Shown piece by piece: positions 8,445 through 50,691 of a stretch of DNA of 64,000 bases. The translations under genes were made by a program, and so were the position numbers. The first letter of the stretch is position 1. Each line of letters opens with the position of its first letter. This DNA is from Caenibius tardaugens NBRC 16725 (lineage in GTDB: Bacteria > Pseudomonadota > Alphaproteobacteria > Sphingomonadales > Sphingomonadaceae). Under the pieces are notes generated by a model that did no database searches, was not told where the DNA came from, and was given only the letters and a program-made list of their open reading frames with translations. Location of the stretch: NCBI RefSeq assembly GCF_003860345.1, contig NZ_CP034179.1, positions 620,001 through 684,000 of the forward strand, read 5' to 3'.

Positions 8445-8486
8445 ATCCATGCCCACCACACAATGTGACGAACCGGCCATTTCGCA

Positions 8487-8545: not shown

Positions 8546-8558
8546 GCCCCCATGTCTT

Positions 8559-9932: not shown

Positions 9933-9981
9933 ATGCTATTCCGCTCCCTCTCGTTCTGTCCGCATCCTCGCCTGCGCGTGG

Positions 9982-11654: not shown

Positions 11655-11737
11655 AGCTTCTCCTCCTTCAGGCAAAATTCCCCCGCCGTGCGAAGCTGTC
11701 TCCGCACGCCCGACAAATCCGGGAAGGGGTATTCATG

Positions 11738-27399: not shown

Positions 27400-28281
27400 T
27401 TATCGCGAATCAGGCAGATCGCGCATCCGGAGCAGATCGTTCCGGTACCGGCTCGGGCTCTTTCCGGCCCACCGGCCGAAAGCCGTTGAAAATGCGGAGG
27501 GCGAATGAAAACCCAACCGCTCCGCAATTTCCGCAATGGACAGGTTGCCTTCATCCAGCAGCATCGTCGCCCGTTTCAGGCGCAATTCGTCCAACTGCTG
27601 ATGTATGGTCATCCCCGTGGTTTCATGAAACGCCCGCGTGAGGTGCCGTTTGCTTAGCTCGGCCAGCGCAGCCAGTTCATCCAGTGTCGGGGGTGGGCCT
27701 TCTTCCTCCAGCCGCCGGATTACCTTGCGATAGGCCGCACGCGACAAGCCGCCACGCAACAGATTGCCATCTGCCGGTGTTTCCCGCAGGTACCGCACCA
27801 GTTCCACCAGAAGCGTATTGCCCAGCGCCTCCATCAGGCGGGTCGATGCATAGCCGGGGGCTTCGATTTCCCGGGCGATCCGCAGCATCACATCGCGAAT
27901 AACGGGCCGCTTTACATTCAGGCAACTGTTGAGGCGGTTGCGCGACTGATCAACTTCCTCGCCCAGCAATTCCTCCAGCAAGGGCGGGCGAAACACACAA
28001 CGGATGGAATTCGTCATCACACCGTCCGACCGGATACGCAAAGGCACCCCCGCCGGAACGAAAATCACGCGCCCGATATCGATAAATTCGCCAGTCGCGG
28101 AACCCGGCTCGAAACGCCCTACAGACAGGCTCTGATGCACCTGCCGCTGAAGCGATAACGTGTGGACCCGTTCGTGGAGAATAAACTCCGTCGGGTTGGG
28201 TGTCAGGTGGGTGGCGATCTGCGCCACAAGGACCGATGTCGAGACGCTGACATCGATCCTTGTTTCATAACCGGGCGGCAT
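27400..28281 (-). CDS. AraC family transcriptional regulator
   Basis: A 293-residue regulator with a C-terminal double HTH (LDELAALAELSKRHLTRAFH, then LSIAEIAERLGFHSPSAFS) and an N-terminal cupin-like sensing half (GRVIFVPAGVPLRI). It is clearly paralogous to the AraC protein at 43703-44590: both share GRxxxVPAxVPL, APG(F/Y)AS and RGGLSR-type sequence. It sits directly downstream of the igr-like operon on the same strand, 65 bp after the Ltp2-like gene's end, so its promoter may be read through from the operon. Confidence 0.9.
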   Translation of the reverse strand: MPPGYETRIDVSVSTSVLVAQIATHLTPNPTEFILHERVHTLSLQRQVHQSLSVGRFEPGSATGEFIDIGRVIFVPAGVPLRIRSDGVMTNSIRCVFRPPLLEELLGEEVDQSRNRLNSCLNVKRPVIRDVMLRIAREIEAPGYASTRLMEALGNTLLVELVRYLRETPADGNLLRGGLSRAAYRKVIRRLEEEGPPPTLDELAALAELSKRHLTRAFHETTGMTIHQQLDELRLKRATMLLDEGNLSIAEIAERLGFHSPSAFSTAFGRWAGKSPSRYRNDLLRMRDLPDSR

Positions 28282-28346: not shown

Positions 28347-29516
28347 TCAGCCCTGCGACAGGATCAGGCCCGATGTGGGCACGCCGGTCCCTGCCGTAAC
28401 GATCACATTCCGGCAATCGCCGGGCTGGTTGACACTCTGTCCACGGACAAGCCGCACACCCTCGGCCACACCATTCAGACCATGGATATAGGCTTCACCG
28501 AGCTGACCGCCGTTGGTGTTCACCGGCAGACGCCCGCCGCGCGCGATATTGCCTTCCAGAACGAAGTCCTTGGCCTGTCCTTTCGGGGCGAACCCGAAGG
28601 CTTCGATCTGCGGCAGAACGAAGGGCGAGAAGTGATCGTAAAGGATCGCCGCCTGCACGTCATTGGGACCGATTCCAGCCATGCCGTAAAGCTGGTTGGC
28701 TACGAGGTCCATTTCCGACAGCCGCGTGATATCGGGGCGATAGTAGCTCGTCATCATTTGCTGATCATCGCAGGCGCCCTGTGCGGCGGCGTTGATAATC
28801 ACGGGCGGCTGGCGCAGCTTGCGCGCACGTTCCGCCGTGGTGACGACAACCGCCACGGCCCCGTCCGATTCCTGACAACAATCGAGCAGGTGCAGGGGTT
28901 CGACAATCCAGCGCGATGCCTGGTGGTCGTCCAGCGTGATAGGCTGTTCGTAGAACCATGCTGCCGGATTGGTTGCCGCAAAGTCCCGAAAGCCGACCGC
29001 AATGCGCCCGAAATCTTCCGACGTCGCGCCATATTCATGCATGTAGCGACGGGCGGACATGGCCACCCAGCTGGCCGGGGAAATCAGACCGTACGGGGTA
29101 TAATAGCCGAAATGCGCAATTTCCGCCGTTGGTAAGGCATCCGGGGTGTGCCCCGAACCGAACCGGTATTGCGACCGTTCGTTCATCGCGCGGTAGCAAA
29201 CCACCACTTCCGCAACGCCCGTGGCCACAGCCATCGCGGCATGCATAATCGGTGCGCAAGCCGCACCACCGCCATAGTGGATACGGCTGAAGAACTTCAG
29301 ATCGCGTCCGCCGATATTGCGGAACAACTCGATCTCGGGGTTATTGTCCATGGTGTAGGTGGACATCCCGTCGACTTCCGCCGGATCGATCCCTGCATCC
29401 GCCAATGCCGCCAATGTCGCTTCAACCGCCAGCCGCAATTCGGAACGGCCGCTGTTCTTGGAGAATTCGGTTGCGCCGATACCGGCGATGGCTGCCTTGC
29501 CCGAAAGAGCATTCAT
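28347..29516 (-). CDS. ltp2: Ltp2-like thiolase-fold aldolase (steroid side-chain retro-aldolase type)
   Basis: The 389-residue protein has a thiolase fold of the SCP-x/Ltp2 branch. The usual thiolase HEAF motif is replaced by LYDHFSP with Tyr293, and the GHP-type motif by NTNGGQLGEAYIHG with Tyr343. These fall one residue from the Tyr294 and Tyr344 discussed for actinobacterial Ltp2 (numbering from memory). Ltp2 pairs with a DUF35 domain and cleaves the 17-hydroxy side-chain CoA thioester to a 17-keto steroid and propionyl-CoA; the DUF35 partner is encoded three genes upstream. The ATG overlaps the MaoC stop codon by 4 bp. Steroid specificity is inferred from the operon. Confidence 0.85.
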   Translation of the reverse strand: MNALSGKAAIAGIGATEFSKNSGRSELRLAVEATLAALADAGIDPAEVDGMSTYTMDNNPEIELFRNIGGRDLKFFSRIHYGGGAACAPIMHAAMAVATGVAEVVVCYRAMNERSQYRFGSGHTPDALPTAEIAHFGYYTPYGLISPASWVAMSARRYMHEYGATSEDFGRIAVGFRDFAATNPAAWFYEQPITLDDHQASRWIVEPLHLLDCCQESDGAVAVVVTTAERARKLRQPPVIINAAAQGACDDQQMMTSYYRPDITRLSEMDLVANQLYGMAGIGPNDVQAAILYDHFSPFVLPQIEAFGFAPKGQAKDFVLEGNIARGGRLPVNTNGGQLGEAYIHGLNGVAEGVRLVRGQSVNQPGDCRNVIVTAGTGVPTSGLILSQG

Positions 29517-29929
29517 GCCGCGTTCCTTTCCGGAAAATGGAGAGTGACAGTGGCACTGACGTGCTCACCGATACGGTTGCGCCCTGAAACGGCGACAGCC
29601 ACTTCGCGCGCATCGGCATCCACGCGGGCCACTTCGCCGTTGATCCGCATCGTATCGCCCACGAAATTGGGTGCGCCCAGCTTGATGGCAATTTTGCGCA
29701 CACGTGCACCGTGCCCGGCCCATTCGCCCACATACCGCTGCACCACGCCATTGGTGGTCAGGATGTTCATGAAGATGTCCGGCACGCCCGTCGATTCCGC
29801 TGCGGCCTTGTCATGGTGGACATTCTGGTAGTCGTTGGTTGCCAGCGCCCCGGCGACAATCGCCGACGCGGTGATCGGAAACGCCAGTTCCGGCAGCGCG
29901 GCGCCTTGTTTAATATCTTCAAACTGCAT
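29513..29929 (-). CDS. MaoC-like enoyl-CoA hydratase subunit (ChsH1-like)
   Basis: A 138-residue single hot-dog protein with the hydratase dyad in ATNDYQNVHHD (Asp33, His38). Size and partner genes match ChsH1, the catalytic subunit of the heteromeric ChsH1-ChsH2 hydratase of cholesterol side-chain degradation. The ATG at 29929 lies inside the 3' end of the upstream acyl-CoA dehydrogenase gene (11 bp overlap), and the stop overlaps the Ltp2-like start (ATGA), so it is tightly coupled to both. The frame extends upstream to 30169, but that part is antisense or overlap noise. Confidence 0.87.
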   Translation of the reverse strand: MQFEDIKQGAALPELAFPITASAIVAGALATNDYQNVHHDKAAAESTGVPDIFMNILTTNGVVQRYVGEWAGHGARVRKIAIKLGAPNFVGDTMRINGEVARVDADAREVAVAVSGRNRIGEHVSATVTLHFPERNAA

Positions 29930-31073
29930 CGAAACCTCCACCGATAGCCGAAAGCGGGCGAGCCTTGCCCGCCGCAATCGCAGCACCCAGTTCAGCGAGC
30001 ATGGGCTGCGCGCCGCCGAGTGCGGATTCGACCGCTTTCGCGGCCAGAAAATAGCGATGGATAGGATAGGTGATGTCTGCCCCCATCCCTCCATGCTGGT
30101 GCTGCGCCGTCTGCGTGACCCGATGTCCACCGGTTGCGGCCCAATATTTGGCCGCGCCGATTTCGACATCGTCGCATTGCCCCTGATCCATCAACCAGGC
30201 GGCGCGCCACGTGGTCGAACGCATCGCCTCGACATCGATGTAGCCATCCGCAGCACGCTGCTGCACCGCCTGCATCGAACCGATCGGGCGCCCGAACTGG
30301 ATCCGTTCGGAGGTATAGGCCGCTGTCCGGTGCAAGGCCGCGCCAGCGATCCCCAACTGGCTGGCGCACAACGCCACGCGCATCCGCCCCACATGCCAAC
30401 GCAAGGTGTCGTTCGCACCGCCGCCGTTATCGAGCAGCGCATCGCCGGGGAGGTGCACGCCATCCAGTTCCAGCAAGGCCAGTGGCGTTGCATCCGTGCC
30501 TGTCTGCTTCTCACGGCGCAGACCCGCGCTATCGACCGGCAGGAGGAACAGACCCGCGCCGCCGTCTTCGCCCAGTCGGGCCGAGATCAGAATGGCAGAC
30601 GCTTCCATCCCCCAGGCAACCGCCGATTTCACACCGGGCAACCGCCAACCATTGCCGTCGCGTTCGGCAAGCAGCGCGGGCACTTGCCACGCACCGCCCA
30701 CTTCATCGCATGCGCTGGTCAGAATGGCTTTCCCGGCCGCTGCCTCGCGTACGATGTCGGTATTGGCCGCGCCTGTCGTTGCCAGCGTTTGCGCCGCAAC
30801 CAATGTGTCGCGCAGCGGAACCGGTGCCAACACAATCCCGGCCTGTTCCAGCAGAAACGCGGTTTCCGCAGTGCCGAAACCGGTTCCCCCGACGCTTTCA
30901 TCGAGGCCTATCCCGGTCAACCCGGCTTCGGCCAGCAGCCGCCACAGATTGGCATCATAGGCAGCACCGGACGCGGCAAAGGCACGCATGTCATCGTCGC
31001 CGCAATGATCGGCAAAAATCGACCGCGCCAGTTCGACGATGGCCTGCTGATCTTCATCAAGAGAGAATTCCAT
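29919..31073 (-). CDS. Acyl-CoA dehydrogenase subunit lacking the catalytic Glu (ChsE1/FadE28-like)
   Basis: A 384-residue FAD-dependent acyl-CoA dehydrogenase fold. QHQHGGMGADITYPIHRYF near the C-terminus is the flavin-contacting segment. At the position where the partner has NHERIGLA with the catalytic Glu, this protein reads GRMRVALCA, so no Glu is present there. The characterised ChsE1-ChsE2 (FadE28-FadE29) enzyme is an alpha2beta2 heterotetramer in which the two subunits contribute different parts of the active site; the operon layout here fits that. The start is 3 bp after the MaoC-DUF35 stop, at a CTGACCGATG junction. Confidence 0.88.
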   Translation of the reverse strand: MEFSLDEDQQAIVELARSIFADHCGDDDMRAFAASGAAYDANLWRLLAEAGLTGIGLDESVGGTGFGTAETAFLLEQAGIVLAPVPLRDTLVAAQTLATTGAANTDIVREAAAGKAILTSACDEVGGAWQVPALLAERDGNGWRLPGVKSAVAWGMEASAILISARLGEDGGAGLFLLPVDSAGLRREKQTGTDATPLALLELDGVHLPGDALLDNGGGANDTLRWHVGRMRVALCASQLGIAGAALHRTAAYTSERIQFGRPIGSMQAVQQRAADGYIDVEAMRSTTWRAAWLMDQGQCDDVEIGAAKYWAATGGHRVTQTAQHQHGGMGADITYPIHRYFLAAKAVESALGGAQPMLAELGAAIAAGKARPLSAIGGGFDAV

Positions 31074-31076
31074 CGG

Positions 31077-32039
31077 TCAGCCCCCGGCACGCGCGGGACG
31101 GAAACCGGGAAGGACATAACCCGGTTCGATCTCCACGAAATCGAGTTCCAGCGGCATGCCGATTTCCAGTTTGTCCGCCGGCAGGTCGATGCCGTTGACA
31201 ACAACGCGCACGCCTTCTTCCAGTTCGACCAGCAGGACCGGCAGCGGGTATTCGAAACCCGGAAGGCGCGGCTGGTGCATTGTCACATGGCTGTAGAGCG
31301 TACCCTTGCCCGAAGCCTTGACCGTTTCCCATTCGAGCGAATGGCAAACCGGGCAACCCGGCCCCGGCGGGTGGCGCAAATGGCCGCAACTGCTGCACTT
31401 CTGGATCAGAAATTCGCGACGGGCGATCCCTTCCCAATAGTGGGCGTTGTCGTGCGTCACCGCCGGGCGCGGGTGCGGGAATTCGGGCTTTGCCGTATCA
31501 GCCGCCGGAGCGGGCGCCTGCGCCAGATTGGGTTTGAACTTCAGAATCCGGAACAACATCCGGCCAACCGGTTCACCATTCTGGTCGGTAAATTCATAAC
31601 GGATCGTCACGAAGTGGCCGATACCAAGCCCGGTACGCTTCTCCTCGGACACGTCATCAACCACGGCGACGTAGGAAACGCGGTCCCCTTCCACCAGATA
31701 ACGGTCATATTCCTGTTCGATATTCGTCGCGACCACGCCGATATAACCGGCTTGGTCGAAGATATTGAGAACGGGGATCGATTCCTCTTCCAGACGCCCG
31801 CCCGAACGATAGGGCGACATCGTCCACACTTCGAGCATGGCGGGCGGGCTGACAGCACTGTCGAACCCCATAGCGCGCGCGGCCTCGTCATCGACGAATA
31901 TGGGGTTTGTTTCCCCCATCGCCTCGCACCAGCGGCGGATCATCGGAATATTGACAGGATCGCGTGCGGTAACCGGGCTGGTTGCTTCGCGGCCAACCCA
32001 TTCACGGGCACGGCTGTAAAGATCGCTTGTATCGTTCAT
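31077..32039 (-). CDS. MaoC-like hydratase / DUF35 fusion (ChsH2-like)
   Basis: The 320-residue protein has an N-terminal hot-dog (MaoC/FAS1-like) domain of about 170 residues, a proline/alanine-rich linker (about 172-195) and a C-terminal DUF35 domain. The DUF35 part has a rubredoxin-like zinc ribbon (Cys215, Cys218, Cys229, Cys232) and an OB-fold (GKGTLYSHVTMHQP and onward). This is the architecture of ChsH2, which pairs through its N-terminus with ChsH1 and through DUF35 with Ltp2, so hydration product can pass to the aldolase. I chose ATG 32039, with AAAAGGG 8 bp upstream; a TTG at 32057 overlaps the previous stop codon and is less likely. Confidence 0.9.
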   Translation of the reverse strand: MNDTSDLYSRAREWVGREATSPVTARDPVNIPMIRRWCEAMGETNPIFVDDEAARAMGFDSAVSPPAMLEVWTMSPYRSGGRLEEESIPVLNIFDQAGYIGVVATNIEQEYDRYLVEGDRVSYVAVVDDVSEEKRTGLGIGHFVTIRYEFTDQNGEPVGRMLFRILKFKPNLAQAPAPAADTAKPEFPHPRPAVTHDNAHYWEGIARREFLIQKCSSCGHLRHPPGPGCPVCHSLEWETVKASGKGTLYSHVTMHQPRLPGFEYPLPVLLVELEEGVRVVVNGIDLPADKLEIGMPLELDFVEIEPGYVLPGFRPARAGG

Positions 32040-32053
32040 CTTGATCACCCTTT

Positions 32054-33232
32054 TCAACGCGGCGCGCGCGGCATGCCGAGCCCGAATTGCGCCACCATAT
32101 CCCGCAGCACCTCAACAGCGCCGCCACCGAACGTGTTAATCTGACATGCCCGGTATTCCCGTTCGATCCGGCCCTGCAGCAGCGCCCCGGGCGAACCGGC
32201 GCGCACCAGACCGGCGGCGCCCAGAATATCCAGAAGCAGCCGGACAACCCTGATCATGCCTTCGGTGCCGAAAACCTTGACGCCACCAGCCAGATCCGGC
32301 CGGGTGGAACCTTCGGCGACTTCCCAGCCCACCCGGTTACCCATGGTTTCGCTGGCCAGCAGCAGCGCATAGGCTTCCGCGAGCGAGGCCTGAACCCAAG
32401 GCAGGTCGATTACCTTGCCCCCTGTTCCACCAACCGATGTCTCGCGGGCCCACTGCACCACGTTGTCGAAATGGCCATGTGCCCCGTAAATGAGCGCGGC
32501 CAGGCCGATGCGTTCGTGATTGAGCTGTTCCGCGATCAATCGCCAGCCCGCGTTTTCCTGCCCGATCACCATATCGGCGGGAACCATCACATCCTGATAG
32601 TAGCTGACGTTGGTGCGAACATCGCCAACCGTGACAATCGGCGAGAACGAGAACCCGGGATCGCGCGCATCGACCATCAGGATCGTGATGCCCTTGTGCG
32701 GGGGCGCATCCGGATCGGTCCGCGTGGCGAGGAAGACATAGTCCGCCCCTTCTGCGCCGCTGGTGAAGATCTTCTGGCCGTTGACCCGATAGTGATCGCC
32801 TTCACGCACGGCCCGCGTCTTGAGCGCGGCAAGGTCCGTGCCCGCGCCCGGTTCCGAATAACCGATCGCAAAAATCAGGTCGCCAGCCGCAATTTTGGGC
32901 AGGATTTCCTGTTTCTGCTTTTCCGTGCCCATCCGCATCAAGGCCGGGCCCACGGTGTTGACTGTGACAAATGGATAGGGCGCGGCCGCCAGAACCAGTT
33001 CTTCCAGCAGAATCTTCTGGGTGCGCGGATCAAGCCCTCGCCCGCCATATTCCACCGGCCAGCCGGGCGTCAGCCAGCCATCGCGCCCCATCTGGCGAAT
33101 GGTTTCACGATAGAGCGGGCCGCCTTCGGCCCCCAGTGTTTCCGCGCGGACTTCATCCGTTACCAACTGTTTCAGATAGGCGCGAAATTCCGCCCTGATG
33201 CGGCGCTGCTCGTCCGTGTAATCGACCCTCAT
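32054..33232 (-). CDS. Acyl-CoA dehydrogenase catalytic subunit (ChsE2/FadE29-like)
   Basis: The 392-residue protein has the substrate/FAD segment IGYSEPGAGTDLAALKTRA and WxTSG-like KIFTSGAEGADYV. It also has Glu240 in LNHERIGLA, the place of the catalytic base reported as Glu241 in FadE29. The C-terminus (NTFGGGAVEVLRDMVAQFGL) is of the FadE29 kind and lacks the usual QxxGGxG flavin segment, which its partner provides. It is the second of two complementary dehydrogenase genes in the operon. Both dehydrogenase genes begin at the same stop-start junction, TGACCGATG. Confidence 0.9.
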   Translation of the reverse strand: MRVDYTDEQRRIRAEFRAYLKQLVTDEVRAETLGAEGGPLYRETIRQMGRDGWLTPGWPVEYGGRGLDPRTQKILLEELVLAAAPYPFVTVNTVGPALMRMGTEKQKQEILPKIAAGDLIFAIGYSEPGAGTDLAALKTRAVREGDHYRVNGQKIFTSGAEGADYVFLATRTDPDAPPHKGITILMVDARDPGFSFSPIVTVGDVRTNVSYYQDVMVPADMVIGQENAGWRLIAEQLNHERIGLAALIYGAHGHFDNVVQWARETSVGGTGGKVIDLPWVQASLAEAYALLLASETMGNRVGWEVAEGSTRPDLAGGVKVFGTEGMIRVVRLLLDILGAAGLVRAGSPGALLQGRIEREYRACQINTFGGGAVEVLRDMVAQFGLGMPRAPR

Positions 33233-33235
33233 CGG

Positions 33236-35053
33236 TCAGTTTCCCTCTTGCTGGAACGGGGCGATACCCAGGCGCTCAAGCGCATCGGGCGTCACCGGCA
33301 CATAGGTTTGCGCGGCCGGATCAACGACAAACACGGGTTCTCCAGTCAGAGCCGGATCATACCCTTCGCGTTGCACCGCCCCTTTGCGCAGTTTGAACGT
33401 GGTGGTCATGTCTGCCGCCCCGGAAAGGCGGACAAACAGCGGCACCGCATAGGAAGCGAGGCGTTCCGAAGCGAAGGCATAGAACGCTTCCGGATCGAAC
33501 GCGTGGCCGGACTGGAACGTCAGCGCCGCCATTCCGGCGCGGCCTTCGGTATGCGGAATCCGCACGCCGTAGACATTCACCATGTCTAGGCCGGGCAAAC
33601 CGGCCAGAACGGTTTCGACTTCCTGTGTCGACACATTCTCGCTCTTCCAGCGGAACGTGTCGCCCACCCGATCCACGAAATAGACATAGCCATCCGCATC
33701 CATGCGAATGAGATCGCCCGATTTCACCCAGGCATCATCCGGTCGGAACAGACCGCGAAGCAGCTTGGCTTCTGTCGCTTCCTCCGAGGTATAGCCTTCG
33801 AAGAACCCGCCAGGGTCGTTCCCATACAAAACTTCCGCCACCAGTTCGCCGACTTCGTCCGGCCCTGCCAGTATCGGCTTGCCGTTTTCATCGAGCATAT
33901 AGCCGTCCGTTTCGACATCCCAGCGCAGCACCCGGATATTGGTATATTCGGGGTACGGAATACGCCCGACCGAACCGACGATATTGTCGACATTGGTGAT
34001 GCCGTAATTGGCCTCGGTCGAACCGAGCCCTTCATAAATACCTTCGATCCCGAACCGATCGACAAATGCCCGCCAGACATCCGGCTTCAGACCGGCGCCA
34101 GCCAGTTTGCGCAGCGTATGATCCCTGTCATCGGGTTGCGGCGGGCTCGCCATCAGATACCGGACGATCTCGCCGATGTAGTAGGCTGCGGTCACCTTGT
34201 GGCGCCGCACATCGGGCCAGAACCCGGAACGGCTGAACTTGCGACGCAGCAGGAACGGCACCCCGAACGCCAGCGAAGCCGATGGCACCACCATCCCGCC
34301 CGCACCATGATAAAGCGGCAGCACGCAATAGAACACGCTGTCCTTGTTGAACTCCATCAGGCCGCCCATCATTTCCCCGCTGTTGAGGAAACGCAGGTGG
34401 CTCATCTTAGCGCCCTTGGGCATGCCGGTCGTGCCAGAGGTGAAGATCAGATAGAGCGGATCGGCCGCGACCAGCCCTTTGCGCAAGTCGGCGGACGGGG
34501 TTTCCTCCGAAGCCTGCGCGACCGCCTGGGCAAAATCGATCTGCCCGTCTTTCGGGGCAATTTCCCGTCCCGGTTCGGCATCGATCAGGACCGGCAGGCC
34601 AGCAGGCCCATCCAGCGTATCAAGCGCATCGATCAGTTCCCGATCGATAATCAACGCCCGCGAATTCACCTGAGTCAAGGCGTGGCGCAGCACAGCGCCG
34701 GTCGCACTGGTATTGATAAGCGCGGTGACGATCCCGGCCTTGGAAAGGCCGAGCCAGTAAAGCACGAATTCGGGGCGATTATACATCATCAGGGCGACCA
34801 CATCGCCGCGCTTCAATCCCTGTGCCATCGCGGCATTGGCAATCTGGTTGGCCCGCCTGTTCGCGTCCGCAAAGGTGATCCGCTGTTCCTCAAACAGGAT
34901 AAACGGGACATCGCCGCTGTCGGCCGCCCGTTCTTCCAGACGATCGGGCACCAGATAGGGCATGTCGCGGGTAAAACCCATGACCCGGCTGGCGCCCTTC
35001 ATATACCGGGCCATCGATTCTTCGCGTGACGGGCGAATTTCAACCTGGCTCAT
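33236..35053 (-). CDS. Acyl-CoA synthetase (FATP/very-long-chain or steroid-acid ligase type)
   Basis: A 605-residue adenylate-forming ligase. The P-loop reads IFTSGTTGMPKGAKM, the second motif region EGLGSTEANYG, and GDTFRWKSENVSTQEVE is the signature of the FATP / FadD17-FadD19 / bile-acid-CoA ligase branch. It forms CoA thioesters of carboxylic acids by way of an acyl-AMP. The ATG at 35053 shares one base with the previous stop codon (TGATG). As the only ligase in the operon, it is the likely step that activates the side-chain acid before dehydrogenation by the ChsE-like pair. Confidence 0.9.
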   Translation of the reverse strand: MSQVEIRPSREESMARYMKGASRVMGFTRDMPYLVPDRLEERAADSGDVPFILFEEQRITFADANRRANQIANAAMAQGLKRGDVVALMMYNRPEFVLYWLGLSKAGIVTALINTSATGAVLRHALTQVNSRALIIDRELIDALDTLDGPAGLPVLIDAEPGREIAPKDGQIDFAQAVAQASEETPSADLRKGLVAADPLYLIFTSGTTGMPKGAKMSHLRFLNSGEMMGGLMEFNKDSVFYCVLPLYHGAGGMVVPSASLAFGVPFLLRRKFSRSGFWPDVRRHKVTAAYYIGEIVRYLMASPPQPDDRDHTLRKLAGAGLKPDVWRAFVDRFGIEGIYEGLGSTEANYGITNVDNIVGSVGRIPYPEYTNIRVLRWDVETDGYMLDENGKPILAGPDEVGELVAEVLYGNDPGGFFEGYTSEEATEAKLLRGLFRPDDAWVKSGDLIRMDADGYVYFVDRVGDTFRWKSENVSTQEVETVLAGLPGLDMVNVYGVRIPHTEGRAGMAALTFQSGHAFDPEAFYAFASERLASYAVPLFVRLSGAADMTTTFKLRKGAVQREGYDPALTGEPVFVVDPAAQTYVPVTPDALERLGIAPFQQEGN

Positions 35054-35940
35054 CAAACGTTCTCCCGCCCGGCCGCATGCGCCTGCAAAAACGGCAGGAT
35101 AGCAGCGTTGAACCGCGCGTTATCATCACCAGCGATCATGTGGCGTGCTCCCGGAATTTCGGCCTGCGCGATATGCGGCAGGGCCTGTTTCAAGTGATCC
35201 ATTGTCTCACGGCTGAGGACATCGCTTTCGCTGCCCCGCACGACCAGCATGGGGGCATCAATCTGCGCCGCCGCAGCCATCAGGCGGGCTTCCACTTTCG
35301 CCCTGTCCCACGCCTGCTTCTTGCCCACGTCCATGAAGGCAGGGTCCCAATGCCAGTAATAGCGCCCGTCAGGCTGTTGCCGCAGGTTCTTGAGCAGCCC
35401 TTCCGGCCGGGACGCGCGCCCGGGATTGCGCGAATAGTTCGCCACCGCCTCAGCCGCTTGTTCCAGCGTATCGAAGCCCCCCATCGTATCCCGCATGAAG
35501 GTGCCAACCCGGTCGGTACCGCGCGCTTCCATGCGCGGCGCGATGTCGACCAGTACCATTGCCGCGCACGGCGCCCGGGGTTCTTCCCCACATGCGAGCA
35601 AGGCGGTGATTCCCCCGAGCGAAGCCCCTACAATCACCGGCGGCCGTGACATCATGCCCACCAGAACACGAATATCGGCTGCAAAATGATCGAGCGTGTA
35701 ATCCCCTTGCGGGCACCAGCTGCTCTGCCCATGGCCGCGCATATCAACGGCATAGACGGTGAACGCCCCTTCCCCGGCACCTGCCTGCGCCGCGAGACTT
35801 TGCGCCGTTCCCCGCCACGACCAGCGGGTTTGCCCACCACCGTGCAGGAGAATAACGGGCGCACCATTTTCCGGGCCATAGCGATCGGCCTGAAGCGTCA
35901 CATCCTGTGCGACGGGGAATGCAACTGTGACAGCCTCCAT
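35053..35940 (-). CDS. Alpha/beta-fold hydrolase
   Basis: A 295-residue hydrolase with oxyanion segment LLHGGGQTRWSW, nucleophile elbow GASLGG (Ser), an acidic residue in VVRGSESDVLS and the catalytic His in GARHMIAGDDNARF. It is the first gene of the igr-like operon, which is not typical of the actinobacterial version. It may hydrolyse an ester or amide conjugate or a CoA thioester. I chose ATG 35940, after a GTAGAGAG site; the open frame upstream to 36018 is only the 13-bp repeat array read through. Confidence 0.85.
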   Translation of the reverse strand: MEAVTVAFPVAQDVTLQADRYGPENGAPVILLHGGGQTRWSWRGTAQSLAAQAGAGEGAFTVYAVDMRGHGQSSWCPQGDYTLDHFAADIRVLVGMMSRPPVIVGASLGGITALLACGEEPRAPCAAMVLVDIAPRMEARGTDRVGTFMRDTMGGFDTLEQAAEAVANYSRNPGRASRPEGLLKNLRQQPDGRYYWHWDPAFMDVGKKQAWDRAKVEARLMAAAAQIDAPMLVVRGSESDVLSRETMDHLKQALPHIAQAEIPGARHMIAGDDNARFNAAILPFLQAHAAGRENV

Positions 35941-36323: not shown

Positions 36324-37079
36324 ATGAACGACATACAAGGCAAGGTCGCATTGGTAACCGGTGCTGGCGGCGGGATAGGCCGTGCCACGGCACAGCTCTT
36401 CGCCACACGTGGCGCAAAAGTCGTTGTCGCCGATTTTCAGGCCGATGCCGGCAACGAAACGGTCGCGCTGATCACGGCCGCCGGGGGTACCGCCAGCTTT
36501 GTGGCTTGCGATGTATCGGTGCCGGAACAGGTCGCGGCGCTCGTCCAGCAGGTAGTCGCGCTCTATGGCGGTCTGGACTATGCGGTGAACAATGCCGGTA
36601 TCGACCCGGAATTCGCCCCGGTGGCAGACTGGTCACTCGAACATTTCGACCGCATCATGGGCATCAACTTGCGCGGGGTCTTCCTGTGCCTGAAGGAAGA
36701 AATTGCCCTGATGAAGGGCAAGGGCGGCGGTATCGTCAACGTCGGATCGTTCGCGTCCTTCGCCGGGGTTGCGAACAAGCCATCCTATTGCGCCAGCAAG
36801 CATGGCGTACTTGGCCTGACCCGCGCCGCAGCGCTGCAATATGCCCGTGATGGCATCCGCATCAACGCGGTTTGCCCCGGCGCTGTGCAGACGGCCATTC
36901 TGGCGGACAATGTCGGATCCTTGCCCGAAGGCGGGGAGGATATCGTCGCACAAAACCATCCCATCGGCCGGATCGCCACGCCTGAAGAAATCGCGGAATC
37001 GATCTACTGGGCGGCCGTGTCCGCCACCTACATGATCGGGCATGGTCTGATCGTCGACGGGGGCCTCGCCGCAGGGTAA
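36324..37079 (+). CDS. SDR family oxidoreductase (hydroxysteroid-dehydrogenase-like)
   Basis: A 251-residue classical SDR with all motifs in place: TGAGGGIG, VVADF (acidic residue favouring NAD), CDVS, NNAGID, catalytic Ser in NVGSFASFAG, YCASK and a C-terminal IVDGGLAAG. Bacterial 3-, 7- and 17-hydroxysteroid dehydrogenases share this form, but the family is too broad to fix the position attacked. It is divergent from the igr-like operon and convergent with two flavin dehydrogenases, a setting that favours a steroid alcohol. Confidence 0.92.
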   Translation: MNDIQGKVALVTGAGGGIGRATAQLFATRGAKVVVADFQADAGNETVALITAAGGTASFVACDVSVPEQVAALVQQVVALYGGLDYAVNNAGIDPEFAPVADWSLEHFDRIMGINLRGVFLCLKEEIALMKGKGGGIVNVGSFASFAGVANKPSYCASKHGVLGLTRAAALQYARDGIRINAVCPGAVQTAILADNVGSLPEGGEDIVAQNHPIGRIATPEEIAESIYWAAVSATYMIGHGLIVDGGLAAG

Positions 37080-37154: not shown

Positions 37155-38864
37155 TCAGACATTGGCCTTGGCCACGTGCCGCGCCGCGCGCCGCCCGGAA
37201 TAGACACAATCGGCATAAGACAGCCCGCTGACATATGTCTGCGACGCGATCCCGACCGCCGTGCGGCCCGCAGCGTAAAGCCCCGGTATCGGCCTGCCAT
37301 CCTGATCGAGCACCAGCCCGCTTTCTTCCTCGATCCGCAAACCGCCGAAAGAAATCACCGGCAAAGGTAGGAACCGGCTCTCTACCGAAATGTCCATCGC
37401 GTAATAGGGACCGCTTTCCAGCGGCTTCATATCGGCGATATCCTTGTCGAAGGTATCCGCTTCTTCGCCCCGTGCAGCCCGATTGTAAGCCTCGATCGTG
37501 GCCCGCAAAGTGGCGGCATCAAAGCCCACCTTTTGGGCCAGTTCCTCTATCGTCCCCGCCTTCTGATAATTGAACATCAGGTTGAGCAAGGTGACATCGC
37601 GCTGAAATGGCACGAGAATCGGGTCCATCGCCTGCTTGAACGCCGCCTTGCGCGCGGCAGCATCGTACACGACATAGGCCACGCCCCCCTGATGATCACC
37701 GATGTGTTCGCCCAGTGTCGCACCATAGACGGTTTCGTCGACGAAGCGTTCACCCTTGCGGTTGACCACGATCGCGTTCGCCCAGGCTTTCGGCGGATTG
37801 ATGAAGCGCCACGCGCTGATCTTGCCCATCAGCGCGGTCTGCCCGCCAACCGACTTGCCAAGATAAATCCCCGCCCCCTGATCACCGAGCGTGCCGTTGG
37901 GCATACCCTTGGCATAATCGGGCGCGTGTTCTTCCACCATTTTCGGGTTCATAATGAAACCGCCGGTGCTGAGCAGCAGCCCTTCGCGCGCACGAATCCA
38001 GCGCGTTTCCCGGCCATGGGATTCAATCGCCATGGCTTTCTTCAGATAGTGGTTGCCGATCCCGATTGTGATCGAGGCAAAGGGCAAGGCTGGCGGCAAC
38101 ATGGCCAGAAACGTGTTGGCGCGCGCGATATAACGGCTGAACTTGCGCGCATCCGCGCTATCCTTCGGGATCGAGAGAATCTTGACCCCGATCACCCGGC
38201 CCGTGCTGTCCACGGCCAATTGCCGCGCTTCGGAATAACGGTGAAACACCAGCCCCAGCTTCAAGGCGGAATCGCGCAGCGGGTCGTAGATCGCCGAGCC
38301 AAGCCCCCAGGCCTTCTTGCCGTTGCGCATAAAGGCGCGATGCCCGCGCGCCGCCGGCTTTGCGCGTTTTTTGTAACTGGAAACCAGCGTATTATCTGGG
38401 TGATACAGGAAACGGTCGAGCGGTGGATAAGACGCCTTTTCCTTCCACACGGCGGAGTTCAGCTTCCCCCCATGCTCCAGAATCCAGTCAACCGTTGGCA
38501 CGGATTCGGCCACGAACTTACGCAGCGTTGCATCGGAGACGACATCGCCCGCCTCGATCTTGAGATATTTGTACATCTCTTCCGGCGTATCGTCTTCGCC
38601 CGCTTCCTTCTGGATCACTGTGCCACCGCCAGCATAGAAAATCCCGCCATTGGCGGCAGTCGACCCGCCGCCTTCATAACGATCGACGGCAATAACGCGC
38701 ACCCCGCGTTCCACCGCTTCGAGCGCGGCGGCAACCCCTGCGCCACCCAGACCAACAACCACCAGATCGGCGGTCTCATCCCATGGATGGGAATCGGGAT
38801 CGGCGATCACCAACGGATCTTCGATTTCCAGCCCCAGTTCGCGGGCCTTCTCGGCGACTGTCAT
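37155..38864 (-). CDS. FAD-binding dehydrogenase (KstD / fumarate-reductase flavoprotein superfamily)
   Basis: A 569-residue flavoprotein with the dinucleotide loop VVGLGGAGVAAALEA, followed by GGGSTAANGGIFYAGGGT as in the FAD_binding_2 family. It ends in GLYAAGRTAVG and SGLSYADCVYSGRRAARH instead of the GATIGPAMTFG end of true delta-1 dehydrogenases. A delta-4-(5alpha or 5beta)-ketosteroid dehydrogenase, as known from bile-salt and androgen degraders, is a reasonable guess; other ene-dehydrogenations are possible. It follows the KstD-like gene by 52 bp in the same direction, so the two form an operon. Confidence 0.85.
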   Translation of the reverse strand: MTVAEKARELGLEIEDPLVIADPDSHPWDETADLVVVGLGGAGVAAALEAVERGVRVIAVDRYEGGGSTAANGGIFYAGGGTVIQKEAGEDDTPEEMYKYLKIEAGDVVSDATLRKFVAESVPTVDWILEHGGKLNSAVWKEKASYPPLDRFLYHPDNTLVSSYKKRAKPAARGHRAFMRNGKKAWGLGSAIYDPLRDSALKLGLVFHRYSEARQLAVDSTGRVIGVKILSIPKDSADARKFSRYIARANTFLAMLPPALPFASITIGIGNHYLKKAMAIESHGRETRWIRAREGLLLSTGGFIMNPKMVEEHAPDYAKGMPNGTLGDQGAGIYLGKSVGGQTALMGKISAWRFINPPKAWANAIVVNRKGERFVDETVYGATLGEHIGDHQGGVAYVVYDAAARKAAFKQAMDPILVPFQRDVTLLNLMFNYQKAGTIEELAQKVGFDAATLRATIEAYNRAARGEEADTFDKDIADMKPLESGPYYAMDISVESRFLPLPVISFGGLRIEEESGLVLDQDGRPIPGLYAAGRTAVGIASQTYVSGLSYADCVYSGRRAARHVAKANV

Positions 38865-38916: not shown

Positions 38917-40641
38917 TTATTCCGGCAAGGCGCGTCCGGCATCGCGGGCGATCCGCCGCGCGGCGACAAAGCCAAACGTCATAGCCGGGCCGATTGTCGC
39001 GCCTGCACCGGGGTAGGAATACCCCATGACCGAGGCGGAGACATTCCCGATGGCGTACAATCCTGCAATGGGCCGACCATCCTTGTCGACGACCCTGGCT
39101 TCGGCATCGGTTTCAATGCCGCCATTGGTGCCGATATCGCCCGGATAGATCGTCATCGCATAGTAAGGCGCCTTGTCGAGCGGCTTGAGATTGGGGTTCG
39201 GCTTCCTGCGCGGATCGCCGTAGTAGCGATCATAGGCATCCCGTCCGCGATGGAAATCAGGGTCTTCACCCCGCGTGGCATTGGCGTTGAAGCGCGCAAT
39301 CGTCTGCTCCAGATTGTCGGGGCTGACGCCGATCTTCCCGGCCAGCTCCCGCCAGCTGGATGCCTTGTGCAGCATCTGCCGCACCGGCTTGCTCAACAGG
39401 GCATCGCCGCCGACCGGCATCACCGGGCCCATGGGATACTTGCCGCGATATTCGGCATCGAACAGGATGAAGGATGGGACCGTACCCGCCCCGGGCCGGT
39501 CATTCTCCACCATTTCACGTCCAACGATATGATAGGATGCCGCTTCGTTCAGATAGCGCTGCCCCGCCTGATTGACGATAATCGTACCCGGCAGGGCCCG
39601 TTCGAAATGCAGGGGCCGGGCGCGATCTTCGCCCGGAACCGTCACCGACGGAGACCACCAGACCGAATCCATATGCGACGTCGCAGCGCCCACACGCAGT
39701 GCGGCCTCCAGCGCGTCACCAGTGTTCGACGGCGCCGCCGCGCTCCAGTCCGGGTCAGGGCTCTTGTTGAGATAGCGCATGCGCAAGGCGCGATTGCGTT
39801 CAAAACCCCCAGCCGCCAGCACCACGCCATGGCGGGCGCGAATGCGGATCGAGCGGCCATCGCGCTGCGCCTCCACACCCACGATACGGCCGCCTTCTTC
39901 AATCAGATCGGAAAGCGGCGTGTTGCACCACAATTGCCCGCCCGCATCCTCCAGCGACAGGCGGCACCGCGCGAGAAGCGCGTTGCCGAAAGCCAGAAAA
40001 CGCGACCGTTTTGATTTCAGGCGCCCCTTGATATCGAACACATACCGCGACACCACTTTGGCAAATGCCCGTTTCCAGCCCGGCCCGCGCGTGATCATCG
40101 GCGCGGATTCGATCATGGTCCAGGGAATGCGCCCGAACAGTTGGGTGCTGGGGTGCGACATCCGCATATGTTCGAAAGGCGCCCCCAGATCGCGCGAATG
40201 AAACGGCAGCGGTTCGTGCGTGCGGTACCCCATTTTCCCGCCGGGCAGATCTGCGTGATAATCGGTATAGCCAATCGCGCGGAAGTGAACCCGGCTGTGC
40301 GCACGCAGCCAGCGCATCATCACGCGCCCTTCCCGCACGAAGGCTCGAATGCGATCATCGCTGACATTGCCAGCCAGCGCCTTGATATATTCGTAGCCTT
40401 CTTCCTCGCTATCGGGCTGCCCCTGTTCCGCGGCATAATCGCTGGCGATGATCCAGGTGCCGCCACCCGATGTCGCCGAAGTTCCGCCGAACAGCGGGTC
40501 CTTCTCGATCACCAGCGTGCGCAGGCCCGCGCTTGCCGCCACAATCCCGGAGACCAGCCCCCCTGCCCCGGAACCCACGACGACGACGTCAAAGTCTTCA
40601 TCCCAGCCGTTTTCGGTACCCACAGGTGCCTGTTCGCTCAT
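38917..40641 (-). CDS. kstD: 3-Ketosteroid delta-1-dehydrogenase family flavoprotein
   Basis: The 574-residue protein has the FAD loop VVVGSGAGGLVSGIVAA, FGGTSATSGGGTWI, and the C-terminal KstD signatures PYYAMTIYPGDIGTNGG and SVMGYSYPGAGATIGPAMTF. In KstD the Tyr and Gly of the first signature (Tyr487/Gly491 in the Rhodococcus enzyme, from memory) bind the 3-keto group. The enzyme desaturates C1-C2 of ring A, which together with 9alpha-hydroxylation opens ring B. ATG 40641 has GGGAG 5 bp upstream; a GTG at 40647 is the alternative. Functional assignment is to family; the exact steroid is open. Confidence 0.88.
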   Translation of the reverse strand: MSEQAPVGTENGWDEDFDVVVVGSGAGGLVSGIVAASAGLRTLVIEKDPLFGGTSATSGGGTWIIASDYAAEQGQPDSEEEGYEYIKALAGNVSDDRIRAFVREGRVMMRWLRAHSRVHFRAIGYTDYHADLPGGKMGYRTHEPLPFHSRDLGAPFEHMRMSHPSTQLFGRIPWTMIESAPMITRGPGWKRAFAKVVSRYVFDIKGRLKSKRSRFLAFGNALLARCRLSLEDAGGQLWCNTPLSDLIEEGGRIVGVEAQRDGRSIRIRARHGVVLAAGGFERNRALRMRYLNKSPDPDWSAAAPSNTGDALEAALRVGAATSHMDSVWWSPSVTVPGEDRARPLHFERALPGTIIVNQAGQRYLNEAASYHIVGREMVENDRPGAGTVPSFILFDAEYRGKYPMGPVMPVGGDALLSKPVRQMLHKASSWRELAGKIGVSPDNLEQTIARFNANATRGEDPDFHRGRDAYDRYYGDPRRKPNPNLKPLDKAPYYAMTIYPGDIGTNGGIETDAEARVVDKDGRPIAGLYAIGNVSASVMGYSYPGAGATIGPAMTFGFVAARRIARDAGRALPE

Positions 40642-40814
40642 GTCCACTCCCGCGATTATTGCAGGGGGTTAGGTCACCCGAAGGGCTGCGATCAATCTCT
40701 CCGCAAAATGCCGCGCGGGTAAATGGCCAGATCGCAAAAGCATCCGGCATCGCGGCAGCTTGAAACCGCCCGTTCGCGTGCGATAACCATGGCCAGAGAT
40801 TTGGGAGGATGATG

Positions 40815-41636
40815 ATGGACCTGTGGTCTTACAAGGGTAAACGGTGTGTGGTTGTCGGGTGTTATTCCGGCATTGGCGAGGCGACTGCACGCGAACTGGT
40901 GCGCCTGGGCGGTGAAGTGCATGGATTCGACGTCAAGCCTTCGCCGGTCGACCTTGCGTCCTTCACCACATGCGACTTGCGCAAACGCGACGATATCGAT
41001 GCCGCGCTGGCTGGCATCGCGGGGCCGATCGATGCCCTGTTCTATTGCGCCGGTCTGCCGCAGACCTTCCCGGGGATCGAAGTGGTGCAGGTCAATTTCC
41101 TGAGCGTGCGCTATCTGATCGAACGCGCCCTGCCCAAAATGCAGCGCGGCGGGGCCATCGCGATCATCGCCTCCACGGCTGGCAATGGCTATGTCATGCG
41201 CCTGCCCACGGTTCTGGAAATCGCCGACACGCCGGATTACGATGCCGGTCTGGCCTGGGCGGAAAGCCACCTGCCCGAACTGGGCGATCCCTATGCCTTT
41301 GCCAAGGAAGCCGTCATCGTCTGGGCGCTCCGCCGGTCGCAGACACTGATCGCCGATGGCATCCGGCTCAACCTGCTCAGCCCCGGCCCCACGGTATCGG
41401 GCATGACCAAGGATTTCGAAGCGGTATCCAGCCCCGCGATCATCGACGTCTACACGGCCCCGATCAACCGGCGGTCATCCTCCGCCGAACAGGCCTATCC
41501 GCTGATCTTTCTCAACAGCGATGGGGCGAGCTATGTCAACGGCACCAACTTTATCGCGGATGGCGGATTCACGTCGGGCATGCAGTTCGGGATGATCGAT
41601 CTGGACGGTATGCTGCAAAAGGCCATTTCGGCATGA
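40815..41636 (+). CDS. SDR, 3alpha-hydroxysteroid dehydrogenase/carbonyl reductase-like
   Basis: A 273-residue SDR with cofactor loop GCYSGIGEA, an acidic residue in HGFDVKPS, the abbreviated CDLRKRDD segment, Ser in IIASTAGNG and YAFAK. The N-terminal pattern and the long stretch before the Tyr resemble Comamonas 3alpha-HSD/carbonyl reductase. Three ATGs lie in a row (40809, 40812, 40815); the last is 6 bp from GGGAGG and is taken as the start. Its stop overlaps the next gene's ATG by 4 bp. It is divergent from the KstD-like gene, suggesting it supplies the 3-keto substrate. Confidence 0.9.
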   Translation: MDLWSYKGKRCVVVGCYSGIGEATARELVRLGGEVHGFDVKPSPVDLASFTTCDLRKRDDIDAALAGIAGPIDALFYCAGLPQTFPGIEVVQVNFLSVRYLIERALPKMQRGGAIAIIASTAGNGYVMRLPTVLEIADTPDYDAGLAWAESHLPELGDPYAFAKEAVIVWALRRSQTLIADGIRLNLLSPGPTVSGMTKDFEAVSSPAIIDVYTAPINRRSSSAEQAYPLIFLNSDGASYVNGTNFIADGGFTSGMQFGMIDLDGMLQKAISA

Positions 41637-42083: not shown

Positions 42084-42401
42084 TCAGGCTTCCTCCGCGA
42101 CTTCGACAACCAGTCCATCCAGAGCATCGGTCACTGTAACCTGACAGCCAAGGCGGCTGGTCGGCCGGGCATTGTCGAGGCCGTCGACCATATCACGCTC
42201 TTCCCCGGTCGGTTGTGGCAGGCGCGCGACCCAGGCATCATCGATATAGACGTGGCAGGTCGCGCAGGAACATATCCCCCCGCACAGACCGACAATGCCC
42301 GGAATGTCATTGCACAGGGCAATTTCCATCAGCGTCATATCAGGGAAGGCATCAACTGTGATCGCATCGCCGTTGACCGGGCGATAAGTTACCTTGGGCA
42401 T
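42084..42401 (-). CDS. Adrenodoxin-type [2Fe-2S] ferredoxin
   Basis: The 105-residue protein has Cys40, Cys46, Cys49 and Cys86, the exact C-x5-C-x2-C-x36-C spacing of adrenodoxin/putidaredoxin-type ferredoxins (GLCGGICSCATCHVY). An extra Cys44 lies inside the loop. These proteins pass electrons from an NADH reductase to a P450. The gene is 7 bp downstream of the P450 gene at 42409-43611, its obvious partner. No ferredoxin reductase is in the window. Confidence 0.95.
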   Translation of the reverse strand: MPKVTYRPVNGDAITVDAFPDMTLMEIALCNDIPGIVGLCGGICSCATCHVYIDDAWVARLPQPTGEERDMVDGLDNARPTSRLGCQVTVTDALDGLVVEVAEEA

Positions 42402-43702: not shown

Positions 43703-44590
43703 TCAATGGCTGGAATAGGATGCCCCCGCCTTGCCCAAGCGACCGACCCGTTTGCGGTAGTCTTGCGGCGATTCCCCGGCGAGCTTGCGGAACGCCACCG
43801 AAAGGCTGCTCGCGCAGGAGAAACCAAGGCGGTAAGCGATATCCTTGACCAGCAGATCGGTATCGGCAAGCAGCGCCCGGGCTTTTTCGAAACGCACCTG
43901 TTCGACATAGGCATAGACGGTCATCCCCGTCGATTCCTTGAAACTGCGCGTCAGGTGCCGCAGGCTGACCCCGGCCAGTTCACTCAGTTCCGACAGCGAA
44001 GGGCAACGGGCGTTGCCTTCAACCGCTTCGGTGATGATGCGCAGATGACGGCGCGACAGGCCGCCGCGATAAACCACGTCGCCTTTGGGATATTCCCGCA
44101 CGTAACGGGCGAACTGGATCAGCAGGGTCATACCCAGCGATTCCACCAGCGCCTTGCTGGCAAAGCCCGGCGCACGCAGTTCGTTACCAAGAAGATTGAG
44201 AATATCCTCGATCCCCGGATGCCTGAAATTCAACAGCGATGACAGAACGTTGCCATCGAAAATATGGCCATCTCCGCCATATTCCTCCAGCACTTCCTGC
44301 GTGAACATGCAGCGCACCACCTCGTCCGGCCGTTCGGCCGTGCAAACTTCAAGCGGCACATGCGCGGGCAACACCAGCAAGCGCCCGATGTTCTGGAAAT
44401 CCGGGCGCATATTGGGCACGCGATAGCGCCCCTGACACGAATAGGATGGCTGGCGCTGCTGCAACGCGATCGTGTGCAACGGCTCCTCAAACACTTCGCC
44501 TTCCCGGGAATCGGGAAGGTGCGTGATCAGTTCCGCCACCACATGCGCGGTATCCACCCTGACCAGACTTTCATGTCCGTGTGTCAACAT
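43703..44590 (-). CDS. AraC family transcriptional regulator
   Basis: A 295-residue regulator with a C-terminal AraC double HTH (LSELAGVSLRHLTRSFKEST, DIAYRLGFSCASSLSVAF) and an N-terminal sensing half (GRLLVLPAHVPLEV). ATG 44590 follows GAGG at 7 bp spacing; a GTG one codon earlier is also open. It is a paralogue of the AraC protein at 27400-28281. It lies 91 bp upstream of the P450/ferredoxin operon on the same strand, its most likely target. AATGGCAA occurs twice in that gap (43629-43636 and 43677-43684) and could be part of its binding site. Confidence 0.9.
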   Translation of the reverse strand: MLTHGHESLVRVDTAHVVAELITHLPDSREGEVFEEPLHTIALQQRQPSYSCQGRYRVPNMRPDFQNIGRLLVLPAHVPLEVCTAERPDEVVRCMFTQEVLEEYGGDGHIFDGNVLSSLLNFRHPGIEDILNLLGNELRAPGFASKALVESLGMTLLIQFARYVREYPKGDVVYRGGLSRRHLRIITEAVEGNARCPSLSELSELAGVSLRHLTRSFKESTGMTVYAYVEQVRFEKARALLADTDLLVKDIAYRLGFSCASSLSVAFRKLAGESPQDYRKRVGRLGKAGASYSSH

Positions 44591-44883
44591 CACACATCCT
44601 CAACCAGTCTTATCATTATCCCATGGCTGACCTTATGCTGGCGAGCGAAGATGTGTCGAGATCAAATAAGACCACAAACGGTTGCGAAATCGCGCGATCA
44701 GGCCGCTTTGCACAAGTCGATGTCCACATTTCCAAAGCTCGCCCGTTTTTGGCAATCGCCGCGCAGGCTGTTGACGCATTTCGATATCAGTTTCACAAAG
44801 ACTTTCGTTTTTGCGTAAATTTGAGCGCATGTACCACGCCAATATCTGCCTAACGGTAGATCGTACCCCTGAACGCCCCGCCC

Positions 44884-47031: not shown

Positions 47032-47157
47032 GGCTTCTCCCCGCATGAACCGGCCCGCACAAATAAGATTACCCGCGAGCGGCGGGCCCGGTGCACTGTA
47101 TACCACCAGTATTGCACGGCATGCGGACGATGCGAGACCCGCGTGAGCGCAATAATT

Positions 47158-47220
47158 GGCCAAGATCGGCAATCCGGCCAAAGGTTTGCATAAACGGCCA
47201 ATGCCGCCCTGTTCGGCCAA
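47158..47220. promoter_or_regulatory. Four phased GGCCAA boxes in a divergent promoter region
   Basis: GGCCAA occurs at 47158, 47176, 47196 and 47215, all in the same orientation, with spacings of 18, 20 and 19 bp, close to two helical turns. The boxes lie between the molybdoenzyme gene (start 47031) and the TonB receptor gene (start 47318), nearer the latter. This regular same-face arrangement suggests cooperative binding of a regulator; which one is unknown. Confidence 0.5.
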
Positions 47221-47317
47221 ATCGGTTCATCCTATGTCATCGGGGAAAATAGAGCAGGCAGATGCCTGCCGGGACAGGCGGATATGGCGCCAGCCAGAGC
47301 ATGGGAGGACAATGCAC

Positions 47318-49654: not shown

Positions 49655-49665
49655 CGGGGGATAGC

Positions 49666-50679: not shown

Positions 50680-50691
50680 GGAGATTACCCG

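Follow-up and report, generated by a model that had tools for sequence, protein, structure and literature searches.

Gene content of the operon

Caenibius (Novosphingobium) tardaugens is an oestrogen-degrading bacterium. The window, by which we mean the whole 64,000-bp stretch of strain NBRC 16725 that was analysed (contig NZ_CP034179.1, positions 620,001 to 684,000), carries on its minus strand, at 28347-35940, seven genes that a first-pass annotation had described as an igr-like operon for shortening the steroid side chain. All seven open reading frames were confirmed at these places. In transcription order they encode an alpha/beta hydrolase, a FATP/FadD6-type ligase, ChsE2, ChsH2, ChsE1, ChsH1 and Ltp2. 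The arrangement from the ligase to Ltp2 is not due to chance, since it recurs in other sphingomonads.

The operon is already known: it is the igr-like operon EGO55_03105-EGO55_03125 of this strain, in print in 2026 (PMC12882949; this and the other papers cited here are drawn on for the parts available to us). The identification follows from the published gene numbering and from the primers for the delta-igr deletion, three distinct ones of which match the window with their 20-base annealing parts exactly once each (27670, 35932 and 36624). Counting in fives from EGO55_03105 as ltp2 puts EGO55_03150 on the gene for a 3-ketosteroid-Delta1-dehydrogenase (KstD) and EGO55_03165 on a ferredoxin gene; the former has been named a putative kstD (PMC12239570) and the latter listed as a ferredoxin (PMC7793797). 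The published account names five genes, and the part of it available to us does not discuss the ligase, the hydrolase, the gene order, the distribution or the flanking ketosteroid dehydrogenase and P450 genes (PMC12882949). Literature searches found neither the ligase nor the gene order nor the distribution in print, which is not certain because none of the searches was aimed at the ligase alone.

The hydrolase (35053-35940, minus strand like the other six; 295 amino acids from its ATG; PF00561, 82 bits) stands at the head of the operon, followed by the acyl-CoA ligase (33236-35053, 605 amino acids; NF006134/PRK08279, 672 bits against a cut-off of 625). Then come a ChsE2-type acyl-CoA dehydrogenase subunit (32054-33232, 392 amino acids), a ChsH2-type fusion of MaoC and DUF35 domains (31077-32039), a ChsE1-type acyl-CoA dehydrogenase subunit (29919-31073, 384 amino acids), a ChsH1-type MaoC hydratase, the catalytic subunit (29513-29929, 138 amino acids), and the Ltp2-type retro-aldolase, EGO55_03105 by the published numbering (28347-29516, 389 amino acids; NF005892/PRK07855, 663 bits against a cut-off of 469). 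With ATG starts for the hydrolase (35940), the ligase (35053), ChsH2 (32039) and ChsH1 (29929), successive genes meet, starting at the 5' side, with an overlap of 1 base, gaps of 3, 14 and 3 bases, and overlaps of 11 and 4 bases. The open frame of ChsH2 extends to a TTG at 32057, and this 326-residue frame is used for residue numbering below. Positions and domains thus bear out the earlier description of seven genes in the same direction, with overlaps of 1-11 bp or gaps of at most 14 bp and with ligase and hydrolase in front.

Identity of the core enzymes

Proteins were identified by Pfam and NCBIfam profiles and by sequence searches against all PDB sequences. The last five genes had been matched to ChsE2, ChsH2, ChsE1, ChsH1 and Ltp2, and in each case the named counterpart tops the PDB search by a wide margin. 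ChsE2 scores 385 bits with 6wy8_B and 379 with 4x28_A (next other match 146), ChsE1 247 bits with 6wy8_A and 183 with 4x28_D (next 89), and ChsH1 109 bits with 4wnb_B and 108 with 4w78_B (next 39.5). The MaoC half of ChsH2 matches 4wnb_A (147 bits) and 4w78_A (145 bits) and its DUF35 half 6ok1_B (142 bits), the next other match being at 65.5 bits; the Pfam profiles zf-ChsH2 and OB_ChsH2_C are over their cut-offs as well. Ltp2 matches 6ok1_A, the Ltp2 of T. curvata (TcLtp2), over its full length with 577 bits (next 174.5). A fatty-acid or terpene family for the dehydrogenases and the thiolase is ruled out by these margins.

The diagnostic residues agree. ChsE1 and ChsE2 are two distinct subunits, each scoring above all other acyl-CoA dehydrogenases in the PDB, and Glu240 of ChsE2 is invariant (64 of 64 aligned rows; the counts here are of rows retained after filtering by coverage and score). 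ChsH1 has Asp33 and His38, both invariant in 78 of 78 rows, while the MaoC half of ChsH2 lacks the histidine, having Phe54 at its place, where 54 of 66 rows have Tyr. The C-terminal DUF35 domain of ChsH2 bears the finger Cys221-x2-Cys-x10-Cys-x2-Cys238, of C4 type; dyad, missing histidine and finger together are those of a ChsH1-ChsH2 hydratase. In Ltp2, Tyr293-Asp-His-Phe (YDHF) and Tyr343 align to Tyr294 and Tyr344 of TcLtp2. That enzyme, of C3 type, has YDHF with the catalytic Tyr294 and a second catalytic Tyr344, in place of which the C5-type Sal has YDCY and Gln; likewise the zinc finger is of C4 type in the DUF35 domain of ChsH2 and of C3H1 type in Shy (PMC12329534). We therefore rejected a Sal/Shy pair for C5 side chains: the operon has YDHF, two MaoC proteins and a C4 finger instead of YDCY, a single-MaoC Shy and a C3H1 finger.

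Gene order and Ltp2 phylogeny

The operon is not a new kind of system. The same five enzyme types form the igr operon of Mycobacterium tuberculosis, whose order is E1-E2-H2-H1-Ltp2, and the cholesterol module of Rhodococcus jostii; the order in the window is E2-H2-E1-H1-Ltp2. Among 80 loci fetched from named records, counting runs on one strand, the window's order occurs in 27 (9 proteobacterial, 18 actinobacterial), with the hydrolase also present in 6 of the 9 proteobacterial ones. The igr order occurs in 7, all from Actinobacteria and including that of R. jostii, and H2-E1-H1-Ltp2-E2 in 21, all from beta- or gammaproteobacteria; these 21 include four loci that have another, distant E2 upstream. 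The other 25 loci have a different arrangement, lack part of the set or run into a contig end. The first-pass annotation was thus right that the order differs from igr, but it is no proteobacterial invention, and we reject a unique proteobacterial order given the 18 Actinobacteria that share it.

The closest likeness is to the cas-type C3 module of Rhodococcus sp. 1168 and other Actinobacteria, which has the same order from ligase through E2-H2-E1-H1 to aldolase (for strain RHA1, the cas order was deduced from the names CasL to CasP). The ligase of Rhodococcus sp. 1168 is CasI (996 bits, cut-off 900), whereas that of the window is of another, FATP/FadD6-like class; in addition, the window Ltp2 belongs to a separate clade and sphingomonads have added the hydrolase. 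In Comamonas testosteroni TA441, ORF40-44 have the same five functions, and gene disruption there shows removal of the propionyl residue, with cholic acid; going by the ORF numbers, the series opens with the MaoC-DUF35 gene and closes with a dehydrogenase gene (PMC12502768).

A quick tree of 111 Ltp2 rows (107 different), with SH-aLRT (approximate likelihood-ratio) support only, places the window Ltp2 in a 25-row clade (support 96) of which 21 rows are Sphingomonadales by label or kinship. The four exceptions are labelled as metagenome-assembled genomes (MAGs) of Steroidobacteraceae, Proteobacteria, Alphaproteobacteria and Pseudomonadales. Clades of their own are formed by 31 beta/gammaproteobacterial rows (98) and by 37 rows that are mostly actinobacterial (98), and the clade of the window lies beside them, not inside; some of the branchings among the clades are open. 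The module is thus known in kind, and its sphingomonad version is distinct. The proposal of a distinct proteobacterial version is upheld to that extent, and falls short in that the operon is already in print and shares its order with Actinobacteria. As a side observation, the Ltp2 proteins of the Pseudomonadales MAG and of the Alphaproteobacteria MAG are 91% and 89% identical to that of the window and fall inside the Caenibius clade; the former locus is probably a mis-binned contig.

Ligase and hydrolase

The ligase scores 216 bits with the CasI model NF052587 (cut-off 900) and is 26% identical to the presumed SclA of another locus of the strain, so that we rejected it as an orthologue of either. 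That other locus, taken by gene order and ligase type as the bile-salt cluster bsd I, likewise has a CoA ligase and an alpha/beta hydrolase and is induced by cholate (PMC12882949). The two hydrolases are 45% identical over 278 positions, and the bsd I ligase, only 26% identical to ours, has its nearest model in steroid-24-oyl CasG (420 bits, cut-off 750). PRK08279-type ligases stand in the window and in three other loci (L011, L021 and L023). FATP-type ligases activate bile acids in mammals; we know of no bacterial case in which this class activates C22 acids.

Among 43 genomes of the sphingomonad family having both of two steroid-ring markers (IpdA and TesB, see below), ligase matches at E <= 1e-80 occur in 14, the same 14 that have the operon, and they adjoin the operon in each, 4.7-5.5 kb from ltp2 as measured at the low ends of the matches. 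The other 29 genomes gave no match among the best candidates of the first look, up to 30 per genome, with candidates left unscored in 4 of them (G011, G056, G252 and G295). SclA, examined as a sign of a link to bile salts, is matched in 41 of the 43 at the cut-off used and so does not discriminate. From its pattern of matches the FATP-type ligase belongs to the module, which indicates that the substrate is a free acid; a dedicated ligase suggests that this is a free C22 acid. One of the 14 copies (G243, locus L129, 12841-14666) has its ligase in two overlapping frames and its ChsE1 match in two pieces, which may be sequencing error or decay.

Distribution and the link to steroids

An Ltp2 of at least 80% identity was found in 14 of 397 genomes of the sphingomonad family, from 9 genera (the best candidates of a first look were scored, up to 4 per genome). 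IpdA is matched in 56 of the 397 and TesB in 46, and both are matched in all 14 Ltp2 genomes (one-sided Fisher p 3e-13 with IpdA and 1e-14 with TesB, kinship among the 14 genomes of 9 genera being ignored). What we take to be IpdA and TesB are proteins of the strain's published ring-degradation (SD) cluster, where a tesD homologue is their neighbour. HsaD was dropped as a ring marker, as no own-genome match passed the cut-off. Six of the 14 genomes (G084, G174, G220, G243, G288 and G161) have IpdA 28-47 kb and TesB 27-48 kb from ltp2 on the same contig; in the other 8, IpdA is farther away or on another contig.

A second Ltp2 class, 58-64% identical to that of the window, occurs in six genomes (G094, G011, G093, G280, G360 and G017), and G220 carries an additional copy. 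The six flanks (L106-L111, 1.5 kb a side) contain a DUF35 partner; E1 and H1 were not found in them. Just one of these six genomes has the ring markers. Perhaps this class uses the same motif on another substrate.

Six of the 14 operon genomes have a gene of the AtuA family, known from acyclic terpene utilisation, at a distance of about 9 kb from ltp2, and 12 of the 14 have one somewhere; the C. tardaugens copy is more than 120 kb away. In another sphingomonad subclade the AtuA gene precedes the hydrolase (L014 1092-2891, L016 1728-3587, L017 1030-2853, L129 9355-11169), with a Coq4-like gene between the two (L017; weak in L129) or after ltp2 (L016). Our literature search found no paper joining AtuA and steroid degradation, and to our knowledge no role of AtuA in steroid breakdown has been described.

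Such neighbours, together with Ltp2-like classes in genomes without ring markers, would fit an operon whose igr-like enzymes had been recruited to degrade a non-steroid, for example a terpenoid or branched acyl acid. We consider this very unlikely, with IpdA and TesB matched in every operon genome and within 50 kb in six, and with ketosteroid dehydrogenases adjoining the operon in the window. The assignment to steroid side chains made in the first-pass annotation holds by homology, key residues, conserved order and co-occurrence with the ring markers, and the case for it is strong.

Proposed function

Strain NBRC 16725 grows on cholate (PMC12882949, PMC12239570), and the operon could supply the second (C3) cycle when the strain itself breaks down bile salts, as is the case for C. 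testosteroni and R. jostii RHA1: the enzymes are the same, and their order is that found with a CasI ligase in Rhodococcus sp. 1168. The published mutant speaks against this. If the primer positions are combined with the stated arm length of about 700 bp, the deleted part should be roughly 28.37-35.93 kb, practically all seven genes (the UP-reverse and DOWN-forward primers are printed with identical sequence, presumably a misprint), and the mutant still grows on cholate and deoxycholate; moreover, the aldolase gene EGO55_03105 showed no induction by cholate (PMC12882949). The deletion thus argues against a need for C22-CoA activity in growth on these two bile salts. A further paper reports that the bile-salt degrading Sphingobium Chol11 and related Sphingomonadaceae have no Ltp2 homologue (PMC8399759). 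A role in the strain's own bile-salt breakdown is therefore unlikely, and as far as growth is concerned already largely refuted.

We think it probable that the operon is a self-sufficient module for the last cycle of steroid side-chain degradation. Given its dedicated ligase and the negative result of the deletion on bile salts, it most likely takes propionyl-CoA off C22 steroid acids that are not intermediates of the strain's own cholate and deoxycholate breakdown. We derive its chemistry by homology and from what has been published for C. testosteroni and for Actinobacteria; the substrate and the roles of the ligase and of ring-A oxidation we infer here. The FATP-type ligase would convert a free C22 steroid acid (a steroid-20-carboxylate, with a C3 side chain) to its CoA thioester, which ChsE1-ChsE2 would desaturate at C17-C20 and ChsH1 with the MaoC half of ChsH2 would hydrate at C17. 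In complex with the DUF35 half of ChsH2, Ltp2 would then cleave the tertiary alcohol in a retro-aldol reaction to a 17-ketosteroid and propionyl-CoA, and the 17-ketosteroid would enter the strain's 9,10-seco pathway. The natural substrate is probably such a C22 acid or a steroid that gives one; C22 acids that other steroid-degrading bacteria set free are an example. In Caenibius, oxidation of ring A in this molecule would fall to the neighbouring short-chain dehydrogenases/reductases and to the Delta4(5alpha)- and Delta1-ketosteroid dehydrogenases.

Several observations weigh against this proposal. The ligase is not CasI by its score and only 26% identical to the presumed SclA. The YDHF and Tyr residues of Ltp2 occur in 100 of 111 rows, including the 58-64% class, mostly from genomes without ring markers, and alone are no proof of a steroid substrate. 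The family models for IpdA and TesB reach only the level of CoA-transferase and extradiol (BphC/HsaC-type) dioxygenase, TesB scoring 243 bits with the HsaC model, below its cut-off of 450. AtuA-family genes adjoin the operon in some relatives. To these are added the growth of the mutant on both bile salts and the lack of induction by cholate described above; a test of the mutant on a C22 acid was not found in the available part of that report (PMC12882949).

Neighbouring genes

Directly downstream of the operon lies a gene for an AraC-family regulator (27400-28281, minus strand; PF12833), also found beside ltp2 in C. estronivorus (G133) and in a second genome of the genus, G061. On the other side, the divergent neighbour of the hydrolase gene encodes a short-chain dehydrogenase/reductase (SDR) (36324-37079, plus strand; PF13561; kept in G061 at 80%). 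It is followed on the minus strand by a flavoprotein like 3-ketosteroid-Delta4(5alpha)-dehydrogenase (37155-38864; 4at0_A 212 bits, next 97; NF005511 736 bits, cut-off 466) and the KstD, EGO55_03150 by numbering (38917-40647; 7p18_A 480 bits), and then by a second SDR on the plus strand (40809-41636; PF13561, NF009092; kept in G061 at 87%). The minus strand continues with a 2Fe-2S ferredoxin, EGO55_03165 by numbering (42084-42401; PF00111), a cytochrome P450 (42409-43611; PF00067) and a second AraC-family regulator (43703-44593; PF12833; kept in G061 at 86%).

G061 keeps this 36.3-44.6 kb block apart from KstD, with a SnoaL-like gene directly after it. In C. estronivorus the block is not beside the hydrolase within the 3.5 kb read. 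The best PDB matches of the P450 are CYP125MRCA (239 bits), YjiB (229 bits) and CYP130 (227 bits), so that its assignment to CYP125 is not supported, there being no clear separation.

These genes bear on a possible role of the operon in sterol use by Caenibius (cholesterol, phytosterols), in which the P450 and ferredoxin would begin the oxidation of the side chain. Both are kept with the operon in G061, and a reconstructed CYP125 tops the PDB matches of the P450. That match is weak and close to those with other CYPs, however, and the best P450 match in C. estronivorus is only 62% identical and some 30 kb beyond the ltp2 end, i.e. on the other side. A 2016 paper, in its available part, reported no evidence of cholesterol use via the 9,10-seco pathway in Proteobacteria (PMC4810484). 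We regard a sterol role as quite improbable. Similarly doubtful is the more elaborate idea that in Caenibius the operon forms the centre of a bigger, stand-alone locus, comprising the two AraC regulators, P450 and ferredoxin, the two SDRs, the Delta4(5alpha)- and Delta1-ketosteroid dehydrogenases, the FATP-type ligase and the C3 module, and taking a saturated steroid or sterol derivative that bears a side chain through P450 oxidation and ring-A oxidation to the 17-ketosteroid.

Farther along the plus strand, at 47156-51213, a TonB-dependent receptor, an HpnA/3beta-HSD (hydroxysteroid dehydrogenase)-like protein and a SnoaL-like protein are encoded in a row, possibly the uptake and entry part of the same island; only the SnoaL-like gene of this row is beside the island in G061. 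A second steroid-like gene group lies at 3637-12742 of the window. It includes two P450s (3637-4896 and 4905-6140), a two-domain glyoxalase-superfamily protein (7522-8400), a major facilitator superfamily transporter with a weak OATP match, an SDR, an acetoacetate-decarboxylase-family protein and a Rieske oxygenase with a KshA_C domain (11738-12742).

Significance for sphingomonads

Removal of the C3 side chain is the step at which steroids yield propionyl-CoA and a 17-ketosteroid. Beyond the published operon, we add its distribution among sphingomonads and its co-occurrence with IpdA, TesB and the ligase. Bile-salt degraders related to Chol11 were reported, in the part of the paper available, to do without C3 removal (PMC8399759), yet a defined set of sphingomonads has a complete copy of the module with a ligase of its own. 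In the one strain tested the module is dispensable for growth on two bile salts (PMC12882949), and as a mutant has already been made, its purpose is easily tested. Were the stand-alone locus real, a proteobacterium would have an aerobic side-chain route started by a P450, in a group for which evidence of sterol use via the 9,10-seco pathway was reported lacking in 2016. If the proposed module is correct, the FATP-type ligase is a candidate for the enzyme activating C22 acids; and if its substrates are C22 acids released by other bacteria, this would mean a division of labour in environmental steroid breakdown.

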